Source: Pseudomonadota bacterium
GTDB lineage: Bacteria; Desulfobacterota; Desulfovibrionia; Desulfovibrionales; Desulfomicrobiaceae
Assembly (NCBI GenBank): GCA_018902545.1
Contig: JAHIQM010000007.1
Location: 62,001 to 126,000 of the forward strand
Direction of reading: 5' to 3'
DNA: 64,000 bases
The notes beneath the pieces are model-generated. The model did not search any database. It had not been told where the DNA came from and was given only the letters and a program-made list of their open reading frames with translations. The translations under genes were made by a program, and so were the position numbers. Positions 3,646 to 24,386 of the stretch are shown piece by piece. Within the stretch, counting starts at the first letter, position 1. The number at the start of each line of letters is the position of its first letter.

Positions 3646-3725
3646 GCATCCCCGTTCATCGTTACAGATCCTTCGTGCCGCAAGCCTCTGTCGTCATCAT
3701 CTTCACGTCCCTCTCCCGCCAGCCC

Positions 3726-4949: not shown

Positions 4950-5012
4950 GGTGCGGTCTCACGTTGAAGTGCGGAATTAAAATGGCCCGTTAGGTCCCAA
5001 GGCCGGTTTCAA

Positions 5013-6200: not shown

Positions 6201-6208
6201 GGGACAAG

Positions 6209-7009: not shown

Positions 7010-7045
7010 TGGTTTTACGTATCCTCTCGTATTCAGGTTTCCGGG

Positions 7046-8515
7046 CTACAGCCAAGGACCGAGCGCACGGGTAATCATTGCGTCGATGGGTGATTGGCCC
7101 AGGGCCTCCATGATAACGACGGTCACCAGCAGAAGAAAATAGAGCGCCGCACCGGACAGGAAAATACGGTCCCCTCTCACGCGGAGCCTCTCCTCCTTTG
7201 GCTTGGGAATGGCTGGCAGAACGGCCAGCACCCGCTGGTTGAGTGTCCGCAGGTCGGACAGGCTCTCCACCGATCCGCGCATAATGTACGGCACCATGAT
7301 GACGGCTATGCCGATCCCGATTCCGGCCAGGGCCGACAAAAGCATGATCGGCACGCGTTTGGGACTGACCGCGGTGTCGGGCATGACAGCCGGATCCACG
7401 ACCCGAAAGTTCATGGACTTGTTTTCCATCTCCATTTGTTTGGAAACCTCTGACTGGCCGTAGCGGGTCACGAGCTGACTGTAGATCAGGGTCTCGTTTT
7501 CCTTCTTGCGCAAGAGCTCGTTCAGCCCCGTGCGGAGCGCGGGAATCCGGCGCAGAAGCGCTGTCTTTTCATCAATGGTCGCAAGCCCGGCCGTCTCCTG
7601 AAGCGTGGCGGCATCGATCTCGGCCTGGATCAGGGTTTTGGCCGCGCCCCCCGAATTCCCTGTCATTCCGCCCGCCGGACTGCTTTTCACCGCACTTATC
7701 TGGCCCTGCAGCCGGACCACCTTTGGATGCTGGTCCGTATAGGCCGTCATAAGGGCTGCCAATTGGCGCTCCATGTCGGTCAGGTGCGTGGACCGGCCCG
7801 ATCCGGAGGGCATGAGCTGCAACCTGGTCTCAAGCTCAAGCCTGCGCGCCCGAATGGCCTCCAGCTTTCTCTCGGCATCGGCTATCTCGAAACGGATGGT
7901 GGTCTCGTCCGTCGCCAGTTGGAGGCCATGCTCGGCCTTGTACTGATTGATCTCCTCCTCCACCGCGTCGAGGCGTTTCTTGAAGCTCTCTATCTGGTCG
8001 GATAAAAAGCGGGTCGCTTCGAGGGATTCGTCCCGCTTGGAGGCCGTATTCGACTCGATGTAGACTTGGGTGATCGTGTTGACGAAATCGCGGGCATAGC
8101 GCGGGTCGCTGTCCAGAAAGGAGATGAAGAAGATGCCCCGCTTTTCGTCCAGCCTGATGGAAATTCGCTTTCGCAAATCCGTGATGTATGCCTCCCGTTC
8201 CATATCAGAAGAAAACTCGACATCCTTATCCATGATGCGCATCACCTTTAAGAGCGTTTCCCGGCTCAGCATGGCCACGCCCAGAACCTTGATCTTGGCC
8301 TCCATGGACGGAGTGGTGGCAATGCCCTTGACCAATTCGCTGATAACGCTCTGTTCGATGAAAACCGTGGACTGCGCCTCGTATTTCTTGGGCAGGACAT
8401 AGCTGATCACAACACCCAGGGTCATGACCAGCAGAGCCACGACGACCACGACACGTTTATGCTGCAGGAAGATCCTCGCATACCTTTCAAATTGCTGATA
8501 GAGTTCATGATTCAT
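7046..8515 (-). CDS. XrtA system polysaccharide chain-length determinant (Wzz/GumC type)
   Basis: 489 residues. A transmembrane helix lies at about 24-44 (VVVVVALLVMTLGVVISYVL) and the Wzz domain follows. Long coiled coils at roughly 165-245 and 310-345 would extend into the periplasm, and there are two C-terminal hydrophobic segments (ALAGIGIGIAVIMVPYIM and AALYFLLLVTVVIMEALG). It has no kinase domain of its own, consistent with the separate autokinase gene downstream. AGGAG precedes the ATG. Controls EPS chain length in the inner membrane. Confidence 0.92.
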   Translation of the reverse strand: MNHELYQQFERYARIFLQHKRVVVVVALLVMTLGVVISYVLPKKYEAQSTVFIEQSVISELVKGIATTPSMEAKIKVLGVAMLSRETLLKVMRIMDKDVEFSSDMEREAYITDLRKRISIRLDEKRGIFFISFLDSDPRYARDFVNTITQVYIESNTASKRDESLEATRFLSDQIESFKKRLDAVEEEINQYKAEHGLQLATDETTIRFEIADAERKLEAIRARRLELETRLQLMPSGSGRSTHLTDMERQLAALMTAYTDQHPKVVRLQGQISAVKSSPAGGMTGNSGGAAKTLIQAEIDAATLQETAGLATIDEKTALLRRIPALRTGLNELLRKKENETLIYSQLVTRYGQSEVSKQMEMENKSMNFRVVDPAVMPDTAVSPKRVPIMLLSALAGIGIGIAVIMVPYIMRGSVESLSDLRTLNQRVLAVLPAIPKPKEERLRVRGDRIFLSGAALYFLLLVTVVIMEALGQSPIDAMITRALGPWL

Positions 8516-8536
8516 GTGTGGCTCTGCTCCTGCGGC

Positions 8537-9382
8537 TTAAAAAAAGCTTTCCGCGGCAATAATGTAGTCCCCGCGACGCAAGACCACATTCTGGGACAGA
8601 TCGCGGCCCTCGGCCAAATCCTGGGCCCGGACATTGATCCGCGTCTCAGCCCCGTTCTCCCGCCGAACCACGGTCGTGTCGTTCTTCTTGGCGAATTTGT
8701 TGAATCCTCCACACGCCAGCAGAGCATCGAGCACTGTCATCCCGTCCTTGTAAGGCAACGCCTGGGGCGTGTTCACGGCACCGACGACATAGACATACGG
8801 TTCAGGCAGCGCCGGAAAGACAATGATGTCGTTGTTGCGAAGGACAAGGTCCTGCTTTAAGTCGCCGCTGCGCAGCAGAAGGTCGAAGTCCCTCTCCACC
8901 TGGACTCCGTCGCGCATGACATGGGCTCCATGCAGGTCGGCCCGGGCCAAATCCATGCCCGCCAAGAGATGCAGAAGCGAGGTCTTCTGCTTTAAGGGGT
9001 AGACGCCTGTGACAACGCCCCCGCCGATGATGTAAACTTTGCTGTTCTCGATGCCGACCATGGACACCGTGACCATAGGATCCTTGACCAGAGCCGAAAG
9101 ACGCCCGGCGATCTCCTTCTGCAGGGCCACGGGGGTCAAACCCTCGGCCATGAGCTCTCCGGCTCCGGGAAGGGAGATGCGGCCGTCGGGACGAACGAGG
9201 GCGGGAACCGTCAGATCCGGCTCGCCCCACACGAAGACATGCACGCTGTCTCCCGCGCCGATGATGTAATCGCTGGCGAACCCTGTCCCACCAAGAAGCA
9301 TCGCACCGAAAATCAGCACAGCAACTTTGGCCATGAAACATTTTTTCCACATAATGGATACAACTCCGGTATCAGGAAACAT
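8537..9382 (-). CDS. Polysaccharide export protein (Poly_export + SLBB)
   Basis: 281 residues. After a signal-like segment (MAKVAVLIFGAMLLGGTGFAS) comes the Poly_export domain (YIIGAGDSVHVFVWGEPDLT, VRPDGRISLPGAGELMAEG) and then two SLBB-type domains (VYIIGGGVVTGVYPLK and VYVVGAVNTPQALPYKDG). This is the Wza/GumB-like outer-membrane exit for the polymer. Unlike Wza there is no obvious lipobox cysteine. The ATG at 9382 has a strong GGGAGG Shine-Dalgarno five bases away; a second Met 16 codons in would also leave a good signal peptide. Confidence 0.9.
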   Translation of the reverse strand: MFPDTGVVSIMWKKCFMAKVAVLIFGAMLLGGTGFASDYIIGAGDSVHVFVWGEPDLTVPALVRPDGRISLPGAGELMAEGLTPVALQKEIAGRLSALVKDPMVTVSMVGIENSKVYIIGGGVVTGVYPLKQKTSLLHLLAGMDLARADLHGAHVMRDGVQVERDFDLLLRSGDLKQDLVLRNNDIIVFPALPEPYVYVVGAVNTPQALPYKDGMTVLDALLACGGFNKFAKKNDTTVVRRENGAETRINVRAQDLAEGRDLSQNVVLRRGDYIIAAESFF

Positions 9383-9384
9383 CT

Positions 9385-10761
9385 CTACCTCCCTTTTCCA
9401 AGCAATACGACTTTAAATGTTTTGAGAACAATATATATATCAAGTATAATTGATATATTTTTAATGTAATACATGTCATATCTAAGCTTTTCAATTGCAT
9501 CATCTACCGTTGATCCATACGGATAGAGAACTTGCGCCCACCCTGTCAGCCCCGGCTTCACGTAATGACGCTCCGAATAGTATGGAATCACTTCCTTCAG
9601 CTCACTTACGAACTCAGGGCGTTCCGGTCTGGGACCGACCAGGCTCATGTCGCCTTTGAGAATGTTGAGCAGTTGCGGAATCTCGTCCATACGGGAACGG
9701 CGCAGGAAGTTGCCGACCATGGTTATGCGCGGATCGTCCTTCTGGGACCAGACGGCTCCGGTACCTGCTTCGGCGTCCTCGCGCATGGTGCGGAACTTCA
9801 TGAGCACAAAGGGCCTGTCGCCCCTGCCGACCCGGACCTGCCGAAACAGCGTGGGGCCGGGGGTGTCCAGTTTGATGGCGAGCGCGATGAGCGGCAGGAG
9901 CGGCGACAGGCAGATCAGACCGACGCTGGCGGCGCTCAGGTCAAAGACGCGCTTGCACAGGCGCAGCATCCAGTTCACCTTGAACCCATGGCTGAATATG
10001 AACCAGCTGGGTGAAATGTTCTCGATGAGCAGCTTTTGCGTTGCGCTTTCATAAAATGAGGGGGCGTCCACGACCTCGATCCCCGCCATCTTGCAGTTAA
10101 GGAGCTCCTCCACCGGGAAAAAACCCCGCCGCTCGGCCAGGGCGACCACGACCTTGTCGGCCCCGAAATTCTGGGCCAGGCGCAACAACCTGCCGATCCT
10201 GTCAGGAGCTTCTTCCTGGCCGCCCTCTTCTTCCGCCGGGGGAAAAACCGTCGAAGTGCAGCGGACCCTGCCCAGCATGACATAGCTCTCCCGGTTGGCG
10301 TGCATGAACTCCTCCATCTGCTCGGCCAGAGGACCGTCGCCGACGATAAGCACACGCTTGAGCACCCCGGGGATGACCCGGCGATACTTGGCGAACAGAA
10401 ATTCGGCGGACTTGAGCCCGGCAAAGACGCCAAGCCCCAGCACGACAAGGCGGATCTCGCTTCCGAGCACACCCGACGACCTGTCCACGACATAAAGGGT
10501 CGCCATGCTCAGCGAGGTCGCCACGGCTTGATAATACAAGGCTCTCGGCGCCCTCGGCCTGCGGCCTGTGAACCAGAAGACCGACCAGACCGCGACCGAT
10601 GGCAGGATTGTGATGAGCAGAACACTGCTGGCTCCGCGCACGAATTCGAAGTCCCCGGACAGTGATGCGATGGACGGTGCGAGGATGGCCAGGGACGCGC
10701 TGAGGGCCAGCAACGCCCAGACGATGTCGTGGGCAAGATTTCGAAATATCAATTGAGCCAT
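9385..10761 (-). CDS. XrtA system undecaprenyl-phosphate sugar phosphotransferase (TIGR03013 type)
   Basis: 458 residues. Four to five hydrophobic N-terminal segments are followed by a Rossmann-like region (VLIVGDGPLAEQMEEFMH). The C-terminal bacterial sugar transferase domain starts at about 265: KRVFDLSAASVGLICLSPLL, LDTPGPTLFRQVRVG, FVLMKFRTMR, RRSRMDEIPQLLNILKGDMS and LVGPRPERPEF. This is the priming enzyme that moves a sugar-1-phosphate onto undecaprenyl phosphate, the first committed step of the repeat unit. GGGAGG lies just upstream of the ATG. It sits between the TPR lipoprotein and export genes in the conserved XrtA order. Confidence 0.94.
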   Translation of the reverse strand: MAQLIFRNLAHDIVWALLALSASLAILAPSIASLSGDFEFVRGASSVLLITILPSVAVWSVFWFTGRRPRAPRALYYQAVATSLSMATLYVVDRSSGVLGSEIRLVVLGLGVFAGLKSAEFLFAKYRRVIPGVLKRVLIVGDGPLAEQMEEFMHANRESYVMLGRVRCTSTVFPPAEEEGGQEEAPDRIGRLLRLAQNFGADKVVVALAERRGFFPVEELLNCKMAGIEVVDAPSFYESATQKLLIENISPSWFIFSHGFKVNWMLRLCKRVFDLSAASVGLICLSPLLPLIALAIKLDTPGPTLFRQVRVGRGDRPFVLMKFRTMREDAEAGTGAVWSQKDDPRITMVGNFLRRSRMDEIPQLLNILKGDMSLVGPRPERPEFVSELKEVIPYYSERHYVKPGLTGWAQVLYPYGSTVDDAIEKLRYDMYYIKNISIILDIYIVLKTFKVVLLGKGR

Positions 10762-10770
10762 ACTTCCTCC

Positions 10771-13425
10771 CTACTTCCCGCTCAAGGAGCGCAGTAGTTT
10801 TTCGGCGTCCTCGCGTTCGGCGAAATCGGTCTCGGCCAGAGCCACTTCAAGCGTTGCTCTGGCTTCGTCCGTTCGGCCCAGTTCGGCCTGGGCCAAGCCC
10901 TGATGATAAAGGATCCCGGGATTGCCCGGAGCAAGAAGCAAGGCCCGCGCGAGTACATCCAGGGCCTCTTCTGAGCGATTGTTGCGGATCAGGGCGTAAC
11001 CGAGCGTGTCGAGGATGGCGGGGTCGCTGCTGGCGAGAACAAAAGCCGCCATGGCAAGATTCACGGCCTGGGCACTTTTCGTCTTGTCATCGGCCCAGAT
11101 CATGGCCAGATTATTGAGGGCCGGAACGTGGTCGTGCCTGGCCTGGACGGCCTGGAGATACATCCTGGCGGCTTCGTCATTTTTGCCAAGCAGCTGCAAG
11201 GCCATGCCCTTTCCGGTCAGGGCATGGGCGTTGGCGGGGGAATTCGTCAAAACCTGATCAAAGGTGGCCAGCGCCTTCTGCGCCTCCCGGCCACGCAGCT
11301 GGAACTCGCCCAGCACGACGCCGACCTGGTCGTCCGTGGGCTCCAGTGCCCATCCTTTGACCAGTACGCTTTCGGCTTCAGCCCGATTCTTGCGCATCTC
11401 AAGGATGTTCGCCAACGGCAGGCATGACTGGGCCTTGTCCGGCCTAAGCTGCATCAGGCGTCGGGCGCTTTCCTCGGCCTTGTCCAGATCCCCGGCAGCC
11501 ACCCACGCCCGCATCCGCTCCACCGTCCCGCCATAGAGGTCGAGCTGCTCAAGCCGGCCGTACAAGGTCATGGCCTTGTCCATTTCCTTGCGTGCGACAT
11601 GCAGCTTGGCCATGGCCTGGACAATGACCATATTCTCGGGTTGCTGGACTCGCTCCTGCTCCAGAACCGCCAGGGCCTCGTCGCTCTTGCCGTTTCGCTG
11701 CAGGAAACTCGAAAGCATCAGAATCGCCCCTGTGTCCTTGGTGGAACGAGCCTTTTCGAGCCGGACCTGGGCCTCGTCGAGCTTGCCCTGTTTCTCAAGG
11801 ACCGCCGCCGAGGCAATCAGGGCTCGCAAATCGTTCGGAGCAAAGCCCAGAGCCAGATCATACTGCGTCACGGCCTCATCGAGCTTGTTCTGGAAGAGTT
11901 TGGCGATGGCGCCGTGATAATAGGTCTGCAGAAAAGCGGGATCTGCGCCACGCGCCTTGGCCAGATACTCCTCGGCCTCCTCAGCGTTCTTGCGTCCCAA
12001 TGAAGCCTTGGCCAGGGCGTTGTAGAGAACGGCGTCATTCATGCTCCCGTTCAGGCCTTCGGTCAGCACGGCCAAGGCCTCGTCCAGCCGACCATTTCTG
12101 AAATAATACGTGTGCAGGGCCATGCGCGCATCAACGCCCTCGGGCGAAATTTTGATCGCGCTCAACAGATCGTCCTCTCCGCTGCGGTCCCCCAGGGAGA
12201 GCTTGAGCAGCGCCGTCTTGAGCAGCAATCCGTAATGGGATGGCGCCAGCCCCATGGCCAGGTTGAATTCGGCCAGCGCCTCATGAGCTTTGCCCTGCAT
12301 CAGCAGGGCGTCGGCTTTCAGGACATGTCCGCGAAAATCTTCCGGGCTGCCGTCGATCAGCTTATCCGCCACAACCATCGCTTCCGGTCCACGACCCTGA
12401 CGCAGGAAAATCTCGCCCTGCATGATCCTGGCCTGCACAAAACCGGGGCTGTAATCGAGCACGGTCTGGAATTGGGTCACCGCCAGCTCCAGATTTTCGA
12501 GATTGTAATAGACAAGACCCAACAGATAGTATGTTTCCAGATCCGGCGTGATGCGCAGGGATTTGCCAAGGTACGTTGCGGCCTCGTCGAATTTGCCCTC
12601 ACGGAAGAGATACAGCCCCATGAGCCGGTGCCCTTCGGCACTTTCAGGGTAATCTCTCAACATGGCCTCAGCCGAAGTTTTGACCTTGTCCCCTTCGCCC
12701 TTGTTCATGAGGAGGCTGCCTTCCTTGTAGCGGGCAAAAAGATCGGAAGGGTAGATGGAAGAGATGCGCGAATACGCATCAAGCATGGCTTCGGGATTCT
12801 TCCCCTGAGCCTCAAGCTGCGCCAGGGCGTGCAGACCCGTCCTGTTTTCGGGATCCTCGGTCAGCACCTCGTCAAGCATTGTGCGAGCCGCAGCCCTGTC
12901 CCCCTGACCCATAAGAATCTGGACCAGGCCAAGCTTGGCCGAAATCCGCCCGGGCTCGACGGCCAGAGCTTTGTTCAGGTGCGCCCGGGCGCTGGCGGGA
13001 TCTCCGGAAATCGTGGCCGATATGGCCAACTGCTCCAGGGCGGCGGCATCATCCGGATGCTTCTTCAAATAGTCCATCAGCAAGGGCACGGCCAAGGCTG
13101 GCTTGTTCTGGAAGTTGGCGATCCGCCCCAGCTGGAAATTCACTCGTTCGTCATAGGGACTCTGAAGCAGGACTTTCTGGAATTCCTTCTCGGCCTGATC
13201 CATCTTGCCTGTCTCGATATAGGCCAGCCCAAGGTTGAAACGCGCCGCGACGAAATTTGGATTCTTCTCCAGGGCGTTCTTGTAGTGGACAATCGCCCCG
13301 TTATAGTTGCCCTGCTTAAACAGCGACTCTCCCTCGGTATTGAGGGATTCACTGGTATGTCCTTTGCAACCCGCAAGCCCAACACAGAGCATGAGCGCAA
13401 CCGCGTATACCGTACATCTGATCAT
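10771..13425 (-). CDS. prsT: PEP-CTERM system TPR-repeat lipoprotein PrsT
   Basis: 884 residues, close to the usual ~900 of the family (TIGR02917). A lipoprotein signal is present (MIRCTVYAVALMLCVGLAGC), then about twenty tetratricopeptide repeats fill the rest (for example GNYNGAIVHYKNALEKNPNF and KAHEALAEFNLAMGLAPSHY). In XrtA systems this is a periplasm-facing scaffold needed for EPS/PEP-CTERM function; the exact partners are unknown. First gene of the operon, with GGAGG four bases before the ATG. The minus-strand sigma-54 site at 13722-13736 would give it a leader of about 285 nt. Confidence 0.95.
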   Translation of the reverse strand: MIRCTVYAVALMLCVGLAGCKGHTSESLNTEGESLFKQGNYNGAIVHYKNALEKNPNFVAARFNLGLAYIETGKMDQAEKEFQKVLLQSPYDERVNFQLGRIANFQNKPALAVPLLMDYLKKHPDDAAALEQLAISATISGDPASARAHLNKALAVEPGRISAKLGLVQILMGQGDRAAARTMLDEVLTEDPENRTGLHALAQLEAQGKNPEAMLDAYSRISSIYPSDLFARYKEGSLLMNKGEGDKVKTSAEAMLRDYPESAEGHRLMGLYLFREGKFDEAATYLGKSLRITPDLETYYLLGLVYYNLENLELAVTQFQTVLDYSPGFVQARIMQGEIFLRQGRGPEAMVVADKLIDGSPEDFRGHVLKADALLMQGKAHEALAEFNLAMGLAPSHYGLLLKTALLKLSLGDRSGEDDLLSAIKISPEGVDARMALHTYYFRNGRLDEALAVLTEGLNGSMNDAVLYNALAKASLGRKNAEEAEEYLAKARGADPAFLQTYYHGAIAKLFQNKLDEAVTQYDLALGFAPNDLRALIASAAVLEKQGKLDEAQVRLEKARSTKDTGAILMLSSFLQRNGKSDEALAVLEQERVQQPENMVIVQAMAKLHVARKEMDKAMTLYGRLEQLDLYGGTVERMRAWVAAGDLDKAEESARRLMQLRPDKAQSCLPLANILEMRKNRAEAESVLVKGWALEPTDDQVGVVLGEFQLRGREAQKALATFDQVLTNSPANAHALTGKGMALQLLGKNDEAARMYLQAVQARHDHVPALNNLAMIWADDKTKSAQAVNLAMAAFVLASSDPAILDTLGYALIRNNRSEEALDVLARALLLAPGNPGILYHQGLAQAELGRTDEARATLEVALAETDFAEREDAEKLLRSLSGK

Positions 13426-13975: not shown

Positions 13976-14147
13976 TATGACAGAATTAATCCGGAATAAC
14001 TCGCATAACAGCCATCAACGATTACTGTTGCATCAATTTTTTTTCATCTCTTCCAACATATCATTGACACTTCGGACAATATCCCTGAAAAAACGCACCA
14101 TATGGAGGAGGCGATCTGAAACAATCAAAAATCAGTGAGTGTCGATC

Positions 14148-14942
14148 ATGCATGTCCGCACCCTGTTCCCGAAATATTTCCTTCTCTGCTCGATCCTTGT
14201 CTGGGGTTTTGCCAACCCGGCCATTCAGGCCCACGCCCAGCCTTCAGGCCGGGAACTGGCCCAACTGGTCCATGACCGCTATGTGGGCGACGACTCCGTC
14301 TCCCAGCAAACCATGGAACTCATTCCGGCCGTGGGGCAAAAGCGCGTTCGCCAGTTGAACATTTCCGTTTTGGAAAAAAACGGCGCGCGCTCGATCCTGC
14401 TTCGTTTCATATCCCCTGCGGATATCCAGGGGACAGGCTTTCTGGCCGTTGAGGACGGACAGGGGGGAACGGCCCAATTCCTGTATCTGCCGGCCCTGAA
14501 CAGAACCCGACGCATCGTGGCAGGACAGAAGAGCCGCAGCTTCGTGAACACCGATTTCACTTACGAAGACATGGAGCGCAGGCCCGTTGATGACTCCGAA
14601 CACACCATTGTGGGCGAGGAATCACTGAACAACGTACGCTGCTGGATCATGGAGAGCCGCCCCAAAACCGGCACAACCTCCCAGTACACCCTGGTTAGAT
14701 CCTGGGTAGCACAGGATATGCTTCTGCCTTTGCGGGCGGATTTTTTTGCCGGCGGCGAGAACCCGATCAAACGCTTCTCCGTGCTCCAACTGGAAAACAT
14801 CCAGAACATCTGGACCGAGACCAAAGTGATCATGGAAGACCTTGCGTCCGGTCATAAAACAGCCCTGGAGACTACAAATATCCAATACAATACAGGCATC
14901 TCAGACAGCATATTTACACAACAGGCTCTCGAGCGCTGGTAA
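14148..14942 (+). CDS. LolA-like outer-membrane lipoprotein-sorting protein
   Basis: 264 residues from the ATG (a GTG three codons earlier, at 14139, is possible; neither has a strong Shine-Dalgarno). The signal peptide ends at QAHA before QPSGRELAQL. The mature part resembles the LolA-like family PF17131: QTMELIPAVGQKRVRQL, LLRFISPADIQGTGFLAVE, FLYLPALNRTRRIV and FTYEDMERRPVDD. Members are typically encoded with MMPL/RND exporters and are thought to carry lipophilic molecules across the periplasm. This is the first gene of a six-gene plus-strand set that also holds an MMPL exporter, which fits such a role. Confidence 0.85.
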   Translation: MHVRTLFPKYFLLCSILVWGFANPAIQAHAQPSGRELAQLVHDRYVGDDSVSQQTMELIPAVGQKRVRQLNISVLEKNGARSILLRFISPADIQGTGFLAVEDGQGGTAQFLYLPALNRTRRIVAGQKSRSFVNTDFTYEDMERRPVDDSEHTIVGEESLNNVRCWIMESRPKTGTTSQYTLVRSWVAQDMLLPLRADFFAGGENPIKRFSVLQLENIQNIWTETKVIMEDLASGHKTALETTNIQYNTGISDSIFTQQALERW

Positions 14943-14999
14943 CGTTAAATCATGTACATACGTACAAATTGAAGAGCGGTTCCGGGAGATTTGATACCT

Positions 15000-16874
15000 A
15001 TGAAAATTCGAAAAAAAAGGCTGTCCTCATCGTGCACATGGGCGCACCGCCAACCTGGATCGACGCTGCCGCCATTTCTGCACGCCGCCCTGCTGTTCAT
15101 GTCGCTCCTCTTCCCGATCCTGGCCTTTGCGAACCCGCCCACCCTGGTCTCCTCTTTTGATTTAAATCCGGCAGAGTCGCCGCAAACCGTGGGCATTCTT
15201 CTGTCCGGGGCACCTCAAAATGTGGACTCTTTTGTTTTGGACAACCCCACGCGTCTGGTGCTCGACATCACCGAGGCGCGGCTTTTTGGCCCGGCGGCCA
15301 CTCTTCCCGCGCAGCACCCGTTAATCCTTCGCGTTCGCGCGGCGCAGTTCAACCCAACAACCGTGCGGGTAGTCCTGGACTTGAAACGCAACGTGACGCA
15401 CCGGATCGACACGCTTCCCCCAAACGCGGAACACGCCGCACACAGGATCATGGTCAGCCTGGCCCCGACGAACACGGCAACGCAATCCCCGGAGCCCACT
15501 CTTTCCGCCCCGCCATCGCAGGCCGTCGAGCCAGGCACCGGAGTGGTTCATCCGGCATATACAGTGGCCCAGGCAGGCACAGGCGGCGCTGCTGACAATA
15601 AAATACTGTTCTTTGGAGACTCCAAAGCTCCAGACGAGAACCAGGAAGAGCCATCACCCTGGGGGCAACTCGAAATTTCGGGATTTGTCCTCGCAAAAAT
15701 CGCGCAGGAGATGCATGAATCAGGAGGCTCCGAGCAGGCGCGAAACTTCCGCAACACGGTCAGGCTTGAAGGAAAATGGACTCCGCCTTTGCCCGGCAAC
15801 GATTCCGCAGCCGTCCCCGGCGCATCGACCACCTTTCTTTTGGCCTCGCTGCAGTCCGACTACCTCTGGTTTGGTCCAGAACATTCAACGGACGACTATG
15901 ACCTGAACCTTTATGAAGGCTATCTCTCCCACGCCACCCCCGACTGGGACCTGCGCCTGGGCAGACAGATCGTGCGCTGGGGCAAGACGGACCAGGTCAG
16001 CCCCGCTGACAACATCAACCCGCAGGACCTGCGCGAATTCTTCATCCCGGAACTCGAAGACCGCAAGATTCCCAATTGGATGGCCAGAATTCGCCTGTTC
16101 CCCGGCGACTTCACCCTCGAAGGCATCTTCATCCCCTTTTTCGAGGAAAACGAATTCGACTACTCCGGGACCACCTGGGCGCTTCTGGGCAATCAGCCGA
16201 GCGATCTGCGGATCAAGGAATCAACGCCCGGCAAGGGACTGGACAATGCCGACCTGGGCCTGCGTACCTCTGCGACCCTGGGGGGATGGGACCTGGCGGC
16301 GAGCTACCTGTACGCGACGGAAAAATCGCCCCGCCTGCGCTTTGAGCCAGCCAATCCCGCAGGGCCGACCCTGCATGCCGACTACCACAGGCAACACATC
16401 TGGGCCGTGGAGTTTGAAACCACTGCGGACAAGTTCGGGTTTCGGGGCGAAGGAGCCTATTTCGACAAACAGAGCCTGCACACAGAGTCCCTCAATTCCG
16501 TGGCCAAGCCCGTAACCCACTCTGTCATCGGGGTGGATTATCTGGGCGAACAGGACTGGTACGCGAACGTGCAGCTCTCGCACCAGCACGTCTTCGACTA
16601 CGAATCCGACATCCTGTACCTGCGGCGTGACAATTTTTACCTCAGCGGCGAGATCAACCGCGAGTTCTGGCGGGGAAACGCCATGCTGAAGCTGCGCTAT
16701 GCCCTGGACTTAAACGATGGAGGCTCGTTTCTGACCCCGGAAGCCATCTTGAGCTACTACAAAAACCTCGAACTCATCTTGGGAGCAAACGTCTTTTTCG
16801 GCCCGGAGGATTCCCTGTTCGGACGCTACCGGGACAATGACCAGATCTTTTGCAAAGCCAAATACTATTTTTAA
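15000..16874 (+). CDS. AMIN-domain / DUF1302-like outer-membrane barrel protein
   Basis: 624 residues from the ATG at 15000 (an in-frame TTG at 14991 is too close to the GGGAG). After a signal segment ending SLLFPILAFA, residues ~45-145 match an AMIN domain (LVSSFDLNPAESPQTVGILL, VLDNPTRLVLDI, ILRVRAAQFNPTTVRVVLDL). A Pro-rich linker to ~215 follows. From about 225 a beta-barrel of the DUF1302 type contains LRLGRQIVRWGKTDQVSPAD, INPQDLREFFIPELEDRKIP and a C-terminal FCKAKYYF. DUF1302 proteins commonly neighbour LolA-like and MMPL genes; AMIN domains bind cell-wall or polysaccharide components. The fusion suggests a wall-anchored exit channel. Confidence 0.8.
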   Translation: MKIRKKRLSSSCTWAHRQPGSTLPPFLHAALLFMSLLFPILAFANPPTLVSSFDLNPAESPQTVGILLSGAPQNVDSFVLDNPTRLVLDITEARLFGPAATLPAQHPLILRVRAAQFNPTTVRVVLDLKRNVTHRIDTLPPNAEHAAHRIMVSLAPTNTATQSPEPTLSAPPSQAVEPGTGVVHPAYTVAQAGTGGAADNKILFFGDSKAPDENQEEPSPWGQLEISGFVLAKIAQEMHESGGSEQARNFRNTVRLEGKWTPPLPGNDSAAVPGASTTFLLASLQSDYLWFGPEHSTDDYDLNLYEGYLSHATPDWDLRLGRQIVRWGKTDQVSPADNINPQDLREFFIPELEDRKIPNWMARIRLFPGDFTLEGIFIPFFEENEFDYSGTTWALLGNQPSDLRIKESTPGKGLDNADLGLRTSATLGGWDLAASYLYATEKSPRLRFEPANPAGPTLHADYHRQHIWAVEFETTADKFGFRGEGAYFDKQSLHTESLNSVAKPVTHSVIGVDYLGEQDWYANVQLSHQHVFDYESDILYLRRDNFYLSGEINREFWRGNAMLKLRYALDLNDGGSFLTPEAILSYYKNLELILGANVFFGPEDSLFGRYRDNDQIFCKAKYYF

Positions 16875-17050
16875 AAAAATTCCACTCCACCCGCGCCGCG
16901 ACCATCAGGGACAAGCAGACAACTTGAGCCCCGGCAGCTTGCGACGGAGATATTCGCCGACAAGAGCGCCTCGCATCCTTGGCTCCATCGAACCAAGGTT
17001 GGCGACTCTTTTGCGGGCAACGCACAAAAGCACATTCGTCTGGAGATATA

Positions 17051-17917
17051 ATGACACTGGAAAGACATCGATGGCTTAACTTTACAAACTCAATCTCACG
17101 AGAAAATGAATGCCTTCAGCAAACCGAGGAGATTGATTATCTGTTTAAGGTTGCCGATTCAGCATGCGAATTGCTTGAATCATACCATCTTTTGTATCAC
17201 GAATATGTAAACGCAGGATACGCGCGAGAAAACAAAAACGAAATATTAGTTACAAAACACCATTTACATCCCAAAACAACTGTCCTTTTGGCCAAATCCG
17301 AAAGCAGCGTAATATCCACCGCGACACTTGTCCCCGACTCCAACCAGTTCGGCCTGCCCATGGATGACCTGTATGGCAAGGAACTGGGGTCACTGCGCAG
17401 GCAGCGGCGCAAGGTGGTGGAAGTGTGCTCCCTGGCGTCCAGCACGCAGAGATTTTCGAGAAGCGGCATTCAGAATTTCACCAGACTGCTCTTCCTGTAT
17501 TGCGTATTTCAGGACGTCGACGACGTCTGCGTGATGGTCAACCCGAAGCATGTCCCCATTTACAAGAGGCTCTGCGAACTGGAACTCTTCGGAGCCGAGA
17601 AACACTATCACAAGGTCAACGCCCCGGCCGTAGCGCTTCGCGCGGACGTTGCCGCCGTAAGGGAGCGACTCGGCAGCAATGGTCTCTTGAACTCGTACCG
17701 CAACACGCTTGACTCGCATTACCAGTCCCTGCGGATCGCCCTCTGCGAACGGATCACCGGCGTCTTCAAAGACCAACATTTCCCCCGGTTCCGCCCCAAC
17801 CCCCTGGACACGAGCCTGATCAACCACATCCTGTCCGACATCATCGAGGACCTGCAGGATCTTTCCCTGGAATGCAAAATCCTGCTCCGGAGTTCGTATC
17901 CCGGCCTGCAGATCTGA
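17051..17917 (+). CDS. PEP-CTERM/exosortase-associated acyltransferase (FeeM/autoinducer-synthase fold), copy 1
   Basis: 288 residues from the ATG at 17051, chosen because GGAG sits six bases upstream; the frame extends further but lacks a site. GNAT-like N-acyl amino acid synthase features: ATLVPDSNQFGLPMDDLYG, VVEVCSLASS (acidic residue before the SLA turn), FLYCVFQDVDDVCVMVNPKH and FGAEKHYHKVNAPAVALRA. Relatives transfer a fatty acyl group from acyl-ACP to an amino compound. It matches the exosortase-associated acyltransferase family (TIGR03694) in layout. A ~75-residue C-terminal helical extension ends near LLRSSYPGL. The substrate is unknown. Confidence 0.85.
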   Translation: MTLERHRWLNFTNSISRENECLQQTEEIDYLFKVADSACELLESYHLLYHEYVNAGYARENKNEILVTKHHLHPKTTVLLAKSESSVISTATLVPDSNQFGLPMDDLYGKELGSLRRQRRKVVEVCSLASSTQRFSRSGIQNFTRLLFLYCVFQDVDDVCVMVNPKHVPIYKRLCELELFGAEKHYHKVNAPAVALRADVAAVRERLGSNGLLNSYRNTLDSHYQSLRIALCERITGVFKDQHFPRFRPNPLDTSLINHILSDIIEDLQDLSLECKILLRSSYPGLQI

Positions 17918-18091
17918 ACCGCCCAAAACGGGTTCAGGCATGGCATATGCAGTGAACATTTGCGTCTCTTTAAGCGCCGCTGCCAGGAGGATACACCATA
18001 GCGAGCAGAGCCGCTCTTTCGCCGCCAAGGCCGTGACGCGCGCCGCGTCGGCTTTCCCTCTTATTTTCGTGCTCGCGAATATGGAGACCCC

Positions 18092-18991
18092 ATGACCGAT
18101 CTCTCCGAAAATACGCGCCAGGATCGCCGAAGATCCGTCCGACTTCGCCGCTCCGCCATGCTGAGGGCCAAGCTCGATGAAATAGACCGACCAAACATCA
18201 AGATTGCGGAAGCCCGCGATGAGTGGGCTCAGTCTTTTGCCCTCGTCTACAGAGAATACCTTGACTCGGGGTACATCCAGCAGCCGCACCCTTCGGGGAT
18301 GCACTTAAACGTTTACAATCTCCTGCCGGCGACCTGCGTCTTCATTTTCAGAACCTATGTCACGGTCATATCCACCCTGACCCAGATCTTCGACAGCGAA
18401 CTCTTCGGCCTGCCCATGGACGCGCTGTATCGTCCTGAACTCGATGCACTGCGTTCCAAGGGAAGAAAGATCACCGAGCTATCGGCCTTGGCTACACCCA
18501 GGGAAACACGCTGGTGCAATCTCATGGTATTTTTGTCAAAGGCCATGTTTGAATATTCGATGATGAACAACATCGACGACATATGCATCATGGTCAACCC
18601 GAAGCACCTCAATTTTTACAAAACAATGTTTCTGTTCGAGGAATTCGGAGAAGAGCGTTTCTACCCGGGAGTGGGCGCTCCGGCAGTCGCCTTGCGCATC
18701 AATATGGAGCACATTGAAGACAAGGCATCGGAAAAATACAAGGATTTTGAAGTGGATGACAATATCCATGAGTTCTTCTATAAAATGAAAAGCACCTTGG
18801 TGGAATTGAACAACGGCTGGACGTTCTATGAAAAAAGGCCTCCCATGAATGAAGAGGATGCACGGTTCTTCTTCGACACCCGACAGGAAATTTGCAAAAA
18901 TCTGTCCCCGCGCCAAATGGAGCATCTGACGCGTCTGTATCCGTTCCTTGGAAGCATCCCCGCATTCCCCATGCACCCGGACCATCCATGA
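18092..18991 (+). CDS. FeeM-like/exosortase-associated acyltransferase, copy 2
   Basis: 299 residues with GGAG five bases before the ATG. A paralogue of the upstream gene: ELFGLPMDALYRPELDAL, KITELSALATPRET, NIDDICIMVNPKHLNFYK and YPGVGAPAVALRINM align with copy 1 throughout, while the termini differ. It also keeps the C-terminal extension ending LTRLYPFLGS. Two copies in tandem suggest two acylations, two acceptors or two chain lengths in one pathway. Its TGA overlaps the ATG of the MMPL gene, so it is coupled to the exporter. A 174-bp gap with no gene separates the copies. Confidence 0.85.
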   Translation: MTDLSENTRQDRRRSVRLRRSAMLRAKLDEIDRPNIKIAEARDEWAQSFALVYREYLDSGYIQQPHPSGMHLNVYNLLPATCVFIFRTYVTVISTLTQIFDSELFGLPMDALYRPELDALRSKGRKITELSALATPRETRWCNLMVFLSKAMFEYSMMNNIDDICIMVNPKHLNFYKTMFLFEEFGEERFYPGVGAPAVALRINMEHIEDKASEKYKDFEVDDNIHEFFYKMKSTLVELNNGWTFYEKRPPMNEEDARFFFDTRQEICKNLSPRQMEHLTRLYPFLGSIPAFPMHPDHP

Positions 18992-21255
18992 AACACATCG
19001 CCAGTCTGGTCACCCGCTTCCCCATTCTCTGCTTCGTGCTGGCCCTGTGTCTGGCCGCCCCGTTCCTGATCCAGCTCCCCGGCATCCAGACCGTGGACAA
19101 TGTGGATTACTTCACCGTCGAGGACGATCCGGACGTCGCCTTTTATCAAAGCATCAAGGATACCTTCGGAGACGACGAATTCTTCGTTATCGCCTTTTCG
19201 AGTCCGGACCTGTTCACCTCCCCCCGCTTGCACATGATCGCGGCCATCACGCAGGAGCTGGAAACCATTCCTGAAGTTCGGGAGGTGCAGAGCCTGGCCA
19301 ATGTGGACTACATCCACGGCGAGGAGGAATATTTCGAAGTCCGCCCCTTCCTGGAGCGCATCCCGGAAGACGCCCCGGGCCTCGGTATCCTGCGGAAGCA
19401 GGCGCTGGACAACCCGCTGTATGTCGGCAACCTCATCTCTGCCGACGGTGAGACCACTGCCCTGGTGGTCTTTCCCAAAGCGCACGACGCTGAGGATGGG
19501 AGCTTTCGCAAAAGGCTCCTTGACCAGACCGAGGCGGTGCTTTCCAAACACGAAGAGCTCGCCGGCCGGTTCCATCTGGCCGGGTGGACCGTGACCAACC
19601 TCAGTCTCAGCCAGTACATGAAGTCGGATGTGGCCGTGTTCATCCCGGTGACCTACCTGTTCATCACCCTGACGATCTGGCTTTTTTTCCGCAATATACG
19701 CCTGACCCTGCTGGCCCTCGCTAACATCTCCGTTTGTACGGGGGCGACCATGGGACTCTTTCCCCTGCTCGGCATTACCCTGAACAACGTGACCACCATC
19801 GTCCCGCCACTCGTCATGGCCCTGGCCCTGGCCGATTCCGTGCATATTTTCGCCCATTTGGACAAAAAACTGCTGGATAATGACCGCTCCCCCGCCAAGG
19901 CCCTGGAGATCATCCTGCAACGGGTCATCACCCCCTGCTTCCTGACCAGTGTGACCACGGCCGTTGGCTTCATCTCCCTTACCGTGAGCGACATCCCGCC
20001 CATCAAAGAATTCGGGTATGTCGCTTCGGTAGGAATGATCTTCGAGTTTCTGTTTTCCTTCTTGCTGCTGCCGCCGCTCATGCTCATGTGCAAGCCCGAA
20101 ACCATATACTCCGACCAGCGCCAGGAAGTCGGCATGAGCGCCTTTCTGAACCGCCTCTCCACTTTCGTGCAGAACCACGCCCGAGCCATTACCGCCGTCG
20201 TCGCACTCCTGGTCCTGGGCGCGGTGTGGGCAGCCTCGACGATCCGGGTCGAGACCAACCTGCTCGAATACTTCAAGTCCTCAAGTCCCCTGCGGCAGGA
20301 GCTCTCGTACATCGAGCCCCGCCTGAGCGGGGTCGGCACGGTGGACATTTCCGTCAAGGCCGATGAGCGGGATGCCCTGCGCGACCCGGCCAAACTGGCC
20401 GTGATCGAGAGCGTACAAAACTTTGCCCTGACGCTGCCGGGCGTCGACCGAACCATGTCCTTTGTGGATTTCCTCAAAGACATGAACATGTCCTTTCACA
20501 ACGAGGACCAGGCTTTTTACATCATCCCCGAAAGCCGGGAACTGGTGTCCCAGTACCTGCTGCTCTACGACTCCGATGACATGGACGAGTTCATCACCCC
20601 GGAATACGATCAGGCCCGCATCCTGATCCGCATCTCCGAGCACAGCTCCGCGGGACAGGCCAAGCTCATAGACGCCCTGCGCACCTTCATCGACCAGCAC
20701 GAGCACGACGGCCTGCAAATCCGCGTCACCGGCCGGGCGGTACAGGACGTGAACACCATCGACGTCCTGGTGTGGGGACAGGTGGAGAGCCTGGCCCTGG
20801 CCGCCGCCGTGATCACGTTCATCATGTTCCTGGCCCTGCGCTCGCTTGTGACAGGGGCCTTAAGCCTGATCCCGAACTTATTTCCGATCATCATCAACTT
20901 CGGGATCATGGGCCTGCTTGGTATCCCGCTGAACACCTCCACAGCCCTGATTTCCGTAGTCGCCCTGGGCATCGCCGTGGACGACACCATCCATTTTCTG
21001 ACCGAGTACAACCGAAGGCGCGCCGAGAATCTGCCCATGCGGGAGGCGCTGCGACGGACCACCGTGGAAAAAGGCACGGCCATCTGCGCCTCGTCGCTGA
21101 TCCTGGTCATCGGCTTCAGCGTGCTTATGCTCAGCAGCTTTGTGCCCACCATCAGCTTCGGGGGCCTCAGCGCCGTGATCATGATCACTGCCTTGATAGG
21201 CGACCTGATCGTTTTGCCGGCGGCCATGCTTTCCTTTCAAGGCAAGAGCGGCTGA
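18988..21255 (+). CDS. MMPL/RND family exporter
   Basis: 755 residues from the ATG that overlaps the upstream TGA (ATGA). Two repeats are visible, each with one helix, a periplasmic loop of ~200 residues and a five-helix bundle: FPILCFVLALCLAAPFL, then TYLFITLTIWLFF to FLFSFLLLPPLMLM; and ARAITAVVALLVLGAVWAAS, then LAAAVITFIMFLAL to LIGDLIVLPAAML. Conserved Asp in ALALADSVHIFAHL and LGIAVDDTIHFLTEY fit the proton-relay positions. Such pumps export lipids and lipopeptides from the inner membrane. Together with the LolA-like and barrel genes it makes a possible envelope-spanning export route. Confidence 0.93.
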   Translation: MKHIASLVTRFPILCFVLALCLAAPFLIQLPGIQTVDNVDYFTVEDDPDVAFYQSIKDTFGDDEFFVIAFSSPDLFTSPRLHMIAAITQELETIPEVREVQSLANVDYIHGEEEYFEVRPFLERIPEDAPGLGILRKQALDNPLYVGNLISADGETTALVVFPKAHDAEDGSFRKRLLDQTEAVLSKHEELAGRFHLAGWTVTNLSLSQYMKSDVAVFIPVTYLFITLTIWLFFRNIRLTLLALANISVCTGATMGLFPLLGITLNNVTTIVPPLVMALALADSVHIFAHLDKKLLDNDRSPAKALEIILQRVITPCFLTSVTTAVGFISLTVSDIPPIKEFGYVASVGMIFEFLFSFLLLPPLMLMCKPETIYSDQRQEVGMSAFLNRLSTFVQNHARAITAVVALLVLGAVWAASTIRVETNLLEYFKSSSPLRQELSYIEPRLSGVGTVDISVKADERDALRDPAKLAVIESVQNFALTLPGVDRTMSFVDFLKDMNMSFHNEDQAFYIIPESRELVSQYLLLYDSDDMDEFITPEYDQARILIRISEHSSAGQAKLIDALRTFIDQHEHDGLQIRVTGRAVQDVNTIDVLVWGQVESLALAAAVITFIMFLALRSLVTGALSLIPNLFPIIINFGIMGLLGIPLNTSTALISVVALGIAVDDTIHFLTEYNRRRAENLPMREALRRTTVEKGTAICASSLILVIGFSVLMLSSFVPTISFGGLSAVIMITALIGDLIVLPAAMLSFQGKSG

Positions 21256-21336
21256 CAAGGCAGGAACAAGCCGCGCAGTAAACACTCCGGAGACACCCCG
21301 CGACCCAGGGGCTTCTCCTCCAAAAGGGGATCAAGC

Positions 21337-23376
21337 ATGAAACGAGATGAACACCTGGCAACGCTAAAGACCCTCGGCATTTCCGGCGCGACGACCTACC
21401 GCGAGGCCGCCTTTTCCCGCAACATCGGGCTGTTTTCGCCGGGCGAACAGGATCGACTGGCCGAGGCCAGGGTCGCCATCCCGGGGATGGGCGGAGTGGG
21501 CGGGGTACACCTGATCAATCTCGTGCGCACCGGAATCGGCCGCTTCAACCTGGCCGACTTCGACCAGTTCGAGCCAGTCAACGTGAACCGCCAGTTCGGG
21601 GCCAAAGTTCCATCCTTCGGCCGCCCCAAGCTTGAGGTCATGATCGAAGAGGCGCTCAGCATCAATCCGTTCCTGGATATCACCCCCTATCCCGCAGGGT
21701 TGACTGCGGACACCATGGAAGCCTTTCTGACGGGTGTGGATGTCGTCCTGGACGGACTGGACTTCTTCCAGTTCGAAATCCGCCGCTCCCTGTTCAACAT
21801 GGCCCGGTCCATGGGCGTACCCGTGATCACTGCCGGACCCTTGGGGTTCAGCTCGGCCCTCCTGGTCTTTACCCCGCAAGGCATGGGTTTTGACGACTAT
21901 TTCGATGTGGGCGGGGAACTGCCGGAAGAGCAGAAATATCTGCGTTTCGCCATGGGTCTGGCCCCCAGACCAACACATATCGGATACATGGACCTGTCCA
22001 GGGTGGACCTCAAAGGCGGCAAAGGTCCCTCCCTGAACATCGCCTGCCAGCTGTGCGCGTCTCTGGCCGGCACCGAAGCGGTACGCATCATTCTTGGCAA
22101 ACCGGGACTCAAACCGGCCCCCAGTTTCATGCAGTTCGACCCCTTCCTGCAGATACTCCGCAAAGGGCGACTGGCACGGGGCAATCGCTCCTTAAGCCAG
22201 CGCGCCAAACTCTGGTACGTGCAGAACGTACTGATAAACGCTGCAGACAAGGCCCGGGTGCGCATACCGGATCAACCTGTTTTAAGCGTCTCGCAGTTTG
22301 ATTCCCTCCCCCAGGGAGTCGGCACCTATCTGGTGCAGGCCGCAATCCAGGCTCCCTCCGGGGATAATGCCCAGCCATGGCAATTCCGCCTGACGGGCAA
22401 CGACATCCACGTCTTCCTGAATCCACAAGCCGACATGTCCTTTTTCAATATCCGCCAGACCGCTTCCATCATCGCCTGCGGGGCAGCAATGGAAAACATT
22501 CGCCTCGCTGCCCCAGCCATGGGCCTGGACGCAGCCACGCAGATCCTGCCGGATGCCGCCCAGGAAAATCTGATGGCCACTGTGCACATCCAGCCGGGCG
22601 ATCAAGGTGTAGACCCACTTGCCCAGCACATCTGGACGCGCTGCACCAACCGCAGGCCGTACAGCAAGCGTCCTCTGCCGGATTGGGTGCAGGCCGACCT
22701 CAAAGCGCGCATCCGCAATATTCCCGAAGCGCAGTTGCACCTGCTCACCGGCAGCTCCAAGCTTCGAAAGCTTGCCAAGGTGATCTACCTGGCCGACAGG
22801 ATCCGCACCGAGCACCAGGGCTTGCACGAGCATTTCACATCCATGATCCGCTTCAACGTCCAGGAGGCGCAGCAGCGCCGCGACGGCCTGCCCCTCAAAA
22901 ACCTGGAAGCCGGATTGCCGGGGGAAGCATTCCTGCGCCTGACAAAACCGTGGCCCGCAATGCGCCTTGCAAACCGCATTGGCCTTGGCCGCATGGTGGC
23001 TTTACACTCGGCTCAGGGCATCCTGGCCAGTGGAGCTGCCGGGATGGTGGTGGTCGATGGACTTGAAGCAAAGGACTTTCTGCTCGGTGGCCAGGCCTTG
23101 CAGCGCATCTGGCTGGCATTGGAGCACCACGGCCTGCAAATGCAGCCGATGACCGCGGTGACCCTTTTTTGGCTGCGCTGGCAGTGGGAAGGCCCCGCGA
23201 GTTTTTCCGAAAAGCACCAAAAACTGCTGGAACGGGTCTGGCAGGATTTAAAAGGATTGTTCGTCAACGTGGATTTCGAAAAGCAGGGCCTGGTCATGCT
23301 CTTTCGCACAGGCTACGGTCCCGGAATCCGGCACCGCACCTTGCGCCGGGGCGCCGGTGACTCTCTGATGAAATAG
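21337..23376 (+). CDS. ThiF-type adenylyltransferase fused to nitroreductase (Rv1355c-like)
   Basis: 679 residues, two enzymes in one chain. Residues ~20-300 are an E1/ThiF fold: nucleotide loop RVAIPGMGGVGGVHLINLV, acidic switch LADFDQFEPVNVNRQFGA, and CQLCASLAGTEAVRIILG. Residues ~325-660 are a nitroreductase: APSGDNAQPWQFRLTG (FMN-binding start), IACGAAMENIRLAA, TNRRPYSKRPLP and a C-terminal FRTGYGPG. The architecture recalls the mycobacterial Rv1355c/MoeY family of unknown function. ThiF folds activate carboxylates as adenylates; nitroreductase-type flavoproteins oxidise or reduce. Last gene of the acyltransferase/MMPL set, 81 bp after the exporter, with AAGGGG before the ATG. Confidence 0.88.
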   Translation: MKRDEHLATLKTLGISGATTYREAAFSRNIGLFSPGEQDRLAEARVAIPGMGGVGGVHLINLVRTGIGRFNLADFDQFEPVNVNRQFGAKVPSFGRPKLEVMIEEALSINPFLDITPYPAGLTADTMEAFLTGVDVVLDGLDFFQFEIRRSLFNMARSMGVPVITAGPLGFSSALLVFTPQGMGFDDYFDVGGELPEEQKYLRFAMGLAPRPTHIGYMDLSRVDLKGGKGPSLNIACQLCASLAGTEAVRIILGKPGLKPAPSFMQFDPFLQILRKGRLARGNRSLSQRAKLWYVQNVLINAADKARVRIPDQPVLSVSQFDSLPQGVGTYLVQAAIQAPSGDNAQPWQFRLTGNDIHVFLNPQADMSFFNIRQTASIIACGAAMENIRLAAPAMGLDAATQILPDAAQENLMATVHIQPGDQGVDPLAQHIWTRCTNRRPYSKRPLPDWVQADLKARIRNIPEAQLHLLTGSSKLRKLAKVIYLADRIRTEHQGLHEHFTSMIRFNVQEAQQRRDGLPLKNLEAGLPGEAFLRLTKPWPAMRLANRIGLGRMVALHSAQGILASGAAGMVVVDGLEAKDFLLGGQALQRIWLALEHHGLQMQPMTAVTLFWLRWQWEGPASFSEKHQKLLERVWQDLKGLFVNVDFEKQGLVMLFRTGYGPGIRHRTLRRGAGDSLMK

Positions 23377-23420
23377 CCGGCCATTGCGTGCAGGAAAAGA
23401 TGACCTCATAGAACGAGAAA

Positions 23421-23448
23421 TGGCCGGGAAGCATGTGCTCCCCGGCCT
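23421..23448. terminator. Hairpin between convergent genes
   Basis: GGCCGGG-A-AGC / GCT-C-CCCGGCC stem with a four-base loop between the ThiF fusion gene and the first PEP-CTERM gene. The same stem recurs at 27340-27365 after the paralogous PEP-CTERM gene. Here it lacks a T run, so termination strength is uncertain. Confidence 0.55.
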
Positions 23449-23470
23449 AACTCTGATGAGATCAGCGTGA

Positions 23471-24262: not shown

Positions 24263-24311
24263 GATAATCCTCCCAATGTTAAAATAAATTTCTTGTGTTG
24301 ATTGGGTATTA

Positions 24312-24326: not shown

Positions 24327-24386
24327 AGATTTATAATAATAATATCGGCAACTTAAACGCACGCACAGCAATAAGAGCTCAAAAAA

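Follow-up and report, generated by a model that had tools for sequence, protein, structure and literature searches.

A six-gene locus beside an XrtA-associated exopolysaccharide operon is predicted to make and export N-acyl oxazolones

Introduction

Acyl-oxazolones are made by bacterial enzyme sets that combine an acyltransferase, a ThiF-type protein and a nitroreductase-fold oxidase, as described for OxzAB of Pseudoalteromonas rubra and for TyzABC and TrzAS of Mycobacterium tuberculosis (PMC10404671, PMC12856293). TrzS (Rv1355c) closes N-acyl-tryptophan to the oxazolone with ATP and then desaturates it with O2; full activity as cyclase and desaturase depends on residues D217, R540 and Q651, the D217A variant losing cyclase activity and R540A being impaired as a desaturase (PMC12856293). 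The authors of that tryptazolone study regard the physiological role of oxazolones as a major unresolved question (PMC12856293). Here we describe a locus of six genes at 14148-23376 (+ strand) of a 64,000-nt stretch of DNA, referred to as the window (positions 62,001 to 126,000 of contig JAHIQM010000007.1, assembly GCA_018902545.1, Desulfomicrobiaceae). An initial annotation knew of no characterised product for this gene combination, a statement that OxzAB, TyzABC and TrzAS overturn, since they make acyl-oxazolones with these enzyme types. We read it, with a probability of about 0.62, as a locus for the synthesis and export of N-acyl oxazolones (azlactones).

OxzAB and TrzAS (Rv1356c-Rv1355c) share with the window an N-acyltransferase gene and a ThiF-oxidase fusion, the cyclase and oxidase families and the catalytic residues of TrzS. 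The window differs in its two FeeM-type synthases, its dedicated LolA-like/barrel/MMPL set, its XrtA exopolysaccharide neighbour and its probably sulfate-reducing host, and its sequence similarity to the TrzS family is distant (25-31% in plasmid relatives). TyzABC (Rv2336, Rv2338c, Rv2337c), with mmpL9 nearby, likewise has an acyltransferase, a ThiF cyclase, a nitroreductase-fold oxidase and a neighbouring MMPL gene; there, however, ThiF and oxidase are separate proteins, the transport role of MmpL9 is putative, and no LolA-like carrier or outer-membrane barrel has been reported. Craig et al. reportedly published in 2011 that N-acyl amino acid synthases are linked to the exosortase (pmid 21840974). 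Those synthases have in common with the window the FeeM family with its catalytic Glu and an exosortase-bearing host and neighbourhood, whereas in the window they are coupled to a cyclase-oxidase and an export set. In the literature searched, oxazolone genes were not found tied to exosortase or exopolysaccharide loci, to a LolA-like/barrel/pump set or to the LolC/E-like alternative described below. The chemistry has precedents in mycobacteria and marine bacteria; the dedicated outer-membrane export set and the link to a coat appear to be new.

Results

All six open reading frames (ORFs) were found on one strand, as the initial annotation had them, and each matched its named family far above the cut-off in profile searches. 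Start codons are likely starts, read from the sequence.

14148..14942, + strand: LolA-like periplasmic lipid carrier with signal peptide (PF17131, 199.6 bits, 4.5e-59; likely ATG 14148)
15000..16874, + strand: outer-membrane protein with N-terminal AMIN domain and DUF1302 beta-barrel (PF11741, 44.5 bits; PF06980, 67.0 bits; ATG 15000)
17051..17917, + strand: FeeM-type N-acyl amino acid synthase 1 (PF21926, 144.9 bits, 2.3e-42; ATG 17051 behind GGAG)
18092..18991, + strand: FeeM-type acyltransferase 2 (PF21926, 159 bits, 1e-46; likely ATG 18092)
18988..21255, + strand: MMPL/HAE3-type RND inner-membrane pump (PF03176, 110.9 bits, 8e-32; likely ATG 18988)
21337..23376, + strand: fusion of a ThiF-type cyclase and an Acg-type flavin-dependent oxidase of nitroreductase fold (PF00899, 2.1e-44; PF00881, 4.3e-9; ATG 21337)

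The fusion protein exceeds the cut-off of NF011424 (PRK14851; 1236 vs 1170 bits, residues 1-676) and matches the Rv1355c (TrzS) family NF005901 across both domains (4.4e-84). Its score for the latter, 283 bits against a curated cut-off of 476, makes it a homologue and not an orthologue of TrzS, and membership of the orthologue family was rejected. The ThiF domain (PF00899) scores 152 bits, and the nitroreductase-fold domain matches the Acg family NF047509 (7.1e-48) and the Acg structure 2ymv (2.2e-12). In an alignment with three Rv1355c-family proteins from actinobacterial plasmids, D142, R490 and Q603 of the window protein align with D217, R540 and Q651 of TrzS, whose equivalents in the plasmid proteins were assigned by spacing; Arg and Gln are 113 residues apart in the window protein and 111 in the plasmid proteins and TrzS. 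The protein thereby has what is expected of an acyl-oxazolone pathway, a ThiF-type cyclase with the adenylation Asp and an Acg/nitroreductase-type oxidase with the Arg and Gln of TrzS. The ThiF domain most likely closes the oxazolone ring, and the nitroreductase-fold domain most likely desaturates the C-alpha/C-beta bond of the amino acid instead of acting on the acid end. The initial annotation had proposed that an N-acylated molecule is made, activated and then oxidised or reduced at its acid end; synthesis of an N-acyl amino acid, activation of the acid and oxidation hold up, while the site of the redox step most likely moves to C-alpha/C-beta.

That the nitroreductase-fold domain yields an aldehyde or alcohol by reducing the activated acid, with no desaturation, is extremely improbable: TyzC and OxzB, both characterised FDO-A members, desaturate (PMC10404671), and the window protein retains the Arg and Gln examined in TrzS, although a sulfate-reducing host would suit a reduction better than the O2-dependent desaturation studied so far. 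We give just as little credence to a ThiF domain that works as a true E1 on a ubiquitin-like or sulfur-carrier protein, in the manner of ThiF/ThiS or MoeB/MoaD. The ThiF/MoeB fold and the adenylation Asp are those of such enzymes, but the window protein has one CxxC where MoeB and ThiF have two, and its nearest relatives of known function act on small molecules. In 13000-24600 no small ORF with a Gly-Gly end, the expected partner, was found, and E1-type protein conjugation was rejected on these grounds.

Both acyltransferases match the FeeM structure 2g0b (acyltransferase 1, 1.8e-11; acyltransferase 2, 5.9e-11), so that a FeeM/LuxI-fold N-acyl amino acid synthase adjoins the cyclase gene, as in an acyl-oxazolone pathway. 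Acyltransferase 1 keeps the Arg, the catalytic Glu and the His. In acyltransferase 2, E129 lines up with the Glu whose catalytic role in these N-acyl amino acid synthases has been described (PMC4897644), and E129, R121 and H172 are invariant in 62 aligned sequences. In a tree of 62 acyltransferases the two copies fall into separate, well-supported clades, and are therefore not a recent duplication; FeeM gene pairs recur in many related loci. Neither copy matches TIGR03694, the model of the exosortase-associated acyltransferase, at E up to 0.01, and membership of that family was rejected.

Acyltransferase 2 also matches positions 5-293 of NF011425 (2.8e-87), a model of a FeeM-ThiF-nitroreductase fusion. 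On plasmid pDVUL01 of Nitratidesulfovibrio vulgaris DP4 the three activities form one 989-aa protein (DVUL_RS15680; NF011425, 2397 bits), whose acyltransferase part groups in the acyltransferase 2 clade (11 rows, support 94/87). The fusion gene is divergent from the same exopolysaccharide operon as in the window and is followed by two THxN PEP-CTERM proteins and genes similar to the downstream PEP-CTERM/TIGR03008 stretch of the window; strain L2 has an identical arrangement. This PRK14852/NF011425 system of the N. vulgaris megaplasmid is thus like the window in its three enzyme domains, XrtA exopolysaccharide operon and THxN PEP-CTERM neighbours, and differs in being a single polypeptide with one acyltransferase and no adjoining LolA-like/barrel/MMPL set. 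In a Desulfobacteraceae metagenome-assembled genome an acyltransferase-like segment is fused to ThiF, with the nitroreductase-fold domain behind. Since FeeM, ThiF and nitroreductase-fold domains are naturally fused in one protein, there is strong evidence that the three activities act in one pathway. A D. vulgaris strain without the megaplasmid forms about three-fold less biofilm, many other genes having been lost as well (PMC3333781).

Two observations concern these fusions (G and L numbers are our own labels for genomes and loci). At L003 9425-11998 an acyltransferase-like-ThiF fusion is followed by the nitroreductase-fold domain in the next ORF, which has no start codon at its expected beginning and is either a separate gene or the result of a frameshift. 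An ABC permease, an ATPase and an RND-type adaptor at L148 24789-27707 lie some 8 kb from the N. vulgaris fusion gene and may replace the MMPL exporter in that organism.

The distribution of the locus was surveyed in 395 genomes of the phylum. A search with a single window protein had returned only two relatives among genome contigs, and counts were taken from a genome-wide search instead, with cut-offs of our choosing (at least 300 bits for a strong ThiF match, at least 100 bits for a strong FeeM match). Only ThiF matches of at least 300 bits were counted because NF011424 matches generic ThiF/MoeB proteins nearly everywhere (365/395 genomes). Strong ThiF was found in 23 genomes and strong FeeM in 26, with both in 18, and each of the 23 strong-ThiF genomes had some FeeM match, if only a weak one. 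When loci with 14 kb or more of sequence were considered, all six families occur within about 13 kb of ThiF in 13 other genomes (G211, G017, G055, G403, G409, G400, G407, G402, G406, G422, G416, G425, G421) from six families of the phylum, with altered gene order in several. Four of these, of the same genus (G403, G409, G400, G407), have the identical order LolA-barrel-FeeM1-FeeM2-MMPL-ThiF-nitroreductase, divergent from PrsT and exopolysaccharide genes. In the host genome both FeeM genes and the only LolA_like (PF17131) gene sit in the locus. Because of this, and because the set recurs in other genera, the grouping of the six genes is not due to chance, a possibility that the initial annotation had left standing when it suggested a neighbourhood survey and a comparison with exosortase.

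An exosortase match is present in 20 of the 23 strong-ThiF genomes (p ~6e-7) and in 21 of the 26 strong-FeeM genomes (p ~3e-6), against 147 of the 395 overall, p values that ignore shared descent, two genera supplying nine of the genomes. Seven genomes have locus genes on the same contig as an XrtA match, 8 to 55 kb away. The locus thus adjoins XrtA-type exopolysaccharide genes and belongs to a type over-represented in exosortase genomes, and gene neighbourhood and co-occurrence both bear out the proposed link to an exopolysaccharide/PEP-CTERM coat.

The remaining three genes resemble an export route. The LolA-like protein has a hydrophobic N-terminus and PDB relatives 9tp6 (1.4e-38), 4z48 and 3bk5. 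The barrel protein (AMIN, 1.7e-11; DUF1302, 2.3e-18) ends in ...YYF, with a terminal aromatic residue, and the PDB relative of its AMIN part is the AMIN domain of AmiC. The best NCBIfam match of the pump is TIGR00921 (HAE3; 197.6 bits, under the cut-off of 352), and its acidic residues are located in LADS 281-284 and VDDT 664-667. As in AmeABCD of Castellaniella defragrans, a DUF1302 outer-membrane protein, a LolA-superfamily periplasmic protein and an HAE3-type RND pump are encoded together in one operon. The window differs from AmeABCD in having no AmeC (a COG4447-type periplasmic protein), since 14148-23376 contains no other large gene on the + strand, in a PF17131 protein in place of a full DUF1329 protein, in the AMIN domain on the barrel and in its tie to acyl-oxazolone genes. 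With the LolCDE-LolA lipoprotein pathway it shares an inner-membrane extractor and a LolA-fold carrier; the expected cargo, however, is a small lipid, and an RND pump and a barrel stand in place of LolB.

Most tellingly, in three genomes of distant relatives (G378, G147, G341) the LolA-like, AMIN-DUF1302 barrel, ThiF and nitroreductase-fold genes are kept in one run, with a LolD-like ATPase and a LolC/E-like permease in MMPL's place. A constant core with a changing inner-membrane extractor is what would be expected of a lipid delivery route, and we infer that the set delivers its product to the outer membrane; the outward delivery proposed initially is accordingly worded here as probable. LolA_like and MMPL sets without oxazolone genes occur elsewhere, and the three genes might instead be a separate pump for foreign hydrophobic compounds or other lipids that merely adjoins the oxazolone genes. 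AmeABCD, with its DUF1302 outer-membrane protein, LolA-superfamily DUF1329 protein and HAE3 pump, exports monoterpenes (PMC6394551). This alternative is nevertheless quite unlikely, given that the set stays with the ThiF and nitroreductase-fold genes across families, through reordering and through the swap of MMPL for a LolC/E-like ABC exporter, that the pump gene overlaps acyltransferase 2, and that the genome has no other LolA_like gene.

Related arrangements were seen elsewhere. The acyltransferase of G147 belongs to TIGR03694 (209 bits vs a cut-off of 112), and G341 and G343 have proteins similar to it, as judged by eye. A second architecture of this pathway, with a LolD/LolC-E-like ABC exporter, LolA_like, AMIN-DUF1302 barrel, ThiF and nitroreductase-fold proteins, is found at L096 4986-11253, L097 8532-17157 and L076 8375-17725; a TIGR03694-type acyltransferase lies near the L097 and L076 sets and PEP-CTERM proteins near the L096 set. 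Bdellovibrio plasmid pBdHAGR2 carries LolA_like-ABC-ThiF. In genome G280 an AMP-binding ligase goes with LolA-barrel-FeeM-MMPL, and ThiF-nitroreductase is absent from the surroundings. At L089 3640-12878, LolA-like, barrel, FeeM and MMPL genes are accompanied by an AMP-binding ligase where ThiF-nitroreductase would be; this set possibly makes a related lipid with a different tailoring step. At L098 9412-13547 genes for a GNAT-like acyltransferase, ThiF and a nitroreductase-fold protein adjoin a macrolide-type glycosyltransferase, and one of the same kind lies at L097 8532-9740, hinting at glycosylated products.

Within the locus, acyltransferase 2 and the pump overlap by ATGA at 18988-18991, as read from the letters and as initially annotated, and the other gaps are 57-176 bp; the six genes are likely to share one transcript. 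Promoter and terminator scans stayed at chance level, and a sigma-54 consensus scan of the window gave 29 sites vs 27.9 by chance, with no good site upstream of the locus. The exact sigma-54 -24/-12 consensus occurs at 44302-44316 (+) and 59634-59648 (-), not near the six genes. Structure predictions for the barrel (one sequence) and the ThiF-nitroreductase protein (four rows) reached a predicted local distance difference test score (pLDDT) of 29.5 and 43.6, values too low for either model to be used.

On either side of the six genes lie the following features.

462..13425, - strand: XrtA/PEP-CTERM exopolysaccharide operon, divergent from the six-gene set (NCBIfam models over cut-off)
23471-24322, 24601-25509 and 27392-28171, all - strand: PEP-CTERM proteins (PF07589, NF038125)
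25936-26622, + strand: CAAX-protease-related protein (TIGR03008, 254.8 bits)

The operon encodes an aminotransferase, FemAB, deacetylase, outer-membrane protein, ATPase, tyrosine kinase, chain-length determinant, export protein, glycosyltransferase and PrsT (TIGR03019, 03006, 03016, 03015, 03018, 03007, 03027, 03013 and 02917, all over cut-off). It is XrtA-associated, in keeping with the exosortase operon initially named, though the gene for the exosortase is found some 21 kb beyond the left edge of the window on the same contig (G000:C6:40364-41143, 214 bits vs a cut-off of 208). A second exosortase-like match in the host genome (G000:C2:87961-88728, L036), at 156.6 bits, is under the XrtA cut-off and lies inside a 679-aa open frame. 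Two of the three downstream PEP-CTERM proteins belong to the THxN family (NF038125). A full dsrA is encoded in the genome of the host (3.7 Mb, 22 contigs), and for this reason the host is most likely a sulfate reducer, and presumably a strict anaerobe.

Elsewhere in the window, a 2915-aa ORF with glucoamylase and GH94 domains (49376-58123) resembles cyclic beta-glucan synthases, and a two-domain KaiC-like ATPase (31234-32721) adjoins a GGDEF-EAL-like protein (29573-31240, judged from sequence). A CheB-CheR fusion followed by a sigma-54 activator of NtrC/NifA type occupies 33933-38392, and a LigD-type multidomain DNA ligase/primase lies at 60936-63506 (-).

Discussion

In the proposed mechanism, FeeM-type synthases 1 and 2 would acylate the alpha-amine of an amino acid, which is probably aromatic, with a fatty acyl group. 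The ThiF domain would then adenylate the carboxylate with ATP, attack by the amide oxygen closing the 5(4H)-oxazolone, and the nitroreductase-fold flavin mononucleotide domain would desaturate the C-alpha/C-beta bond. In a fourth step the lipophilic product would be lifted out of the inner membrane by the MMPL pump, ferried across the periplasm by the LolA-like protein and placed in or beyond the outer membrane by the AMIN-DUF1302 barrel. At the surface it would probably act within the XrtA exopolysaccharide/PEP-CTERM matrix as a component, a surfactant or a signal. The first three steps have been established by others for homologues and are carried over by analogy; the fourth step, the choice of amino acid and acyl chain, and the function of the product are what we infer. 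The compound is a prediction from gene families, conserved catalytic residues, natural fusions, neighbourhoods and co-occurrence.

Several points weigh against an exported oxazolone made in this way. Of 38 related sequences, 32 have Asp and 6 have Glu at the position of D142, and of 32 related nitroreductase-fold sequences, 23 have Arg and 9 have Leu or Val at that of R490. Four genomes of one genus have ThiF apart from the remaining genes, and the co-occurrence p values take no account of shared descent. The known oxidases TyzC and TrzS use O2, whereas the host has dsrA; desaturation here could rely on another acceptor, synthesis could take place on contact with oxygen, or the pathway could stop at the saturated ring. 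Mycobacterial oxazolones mostly stay in cells, and it is the acyl amino acid that appears outside (PMC12856293). Finally, the producers of stieleriacines, thalassotalic acids and kyonggic acids have the same enzyme types, with N-acyl amino acid synthase, ThiF and nitroreductase genes, and no oxazolone was observed in them (PMC12479983), because of which the end product may be open-chain.

The exported compound would in that case be an open-chain N-acyl dehydroamino acid comparable to these acids, with the oxazolone as a transient, hydrolysed intermediate. Tryptazolones are labile, and outside cells it is the linear acyl amino acid that is found. Set against this, cells of M. tuberculosis, M. 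smegmatis and Rhodococcus jostii with the same enzyme types did contain tyrazolones and tryptazolones, and a LolA-type carrier and MMPL pump would fit a neutral lipid better than a soluble acid; we consider the open-chain product unlikely. A more speculative and very doubtful extension of the oxazolone reading is that the exported compound is a reactive acylating agent, its azlactone ring being opened at the cell surface by free amines of the XrtA exopolysaccharide or of PEP-CTERM proteins, so that acyl-dehydroamino-acid tails become covalently fixed to the coat. The operon's own deacetylase and FemAB genes might supply such amines. If true, ring opening at the coat would amount to an enzyme-free lipidation of an exopolysaccharide matrix.

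The locus suggests a route that oxazolone lipids may take in Gram-negative bacteria, to the outer membrane by way of a carrier and a barrel, next to an exosortase coat. Two lines of work that were unconnected in the literature searched meet in it, oxazolone biosynthesis and the exosortase-linked N-acyl amino acid synthases, and the 'hypothetical' families NF011424 and NF011425 gain a concrete predicted chemistry. A sulfate reducer with an oxidase whose known relatives need O2 poses a testable puzzle. Nitratidesulfovibrio vulgaris, whose plasmid encodes the whole enzyme set as a single gene, would be a convenient organism for tests.

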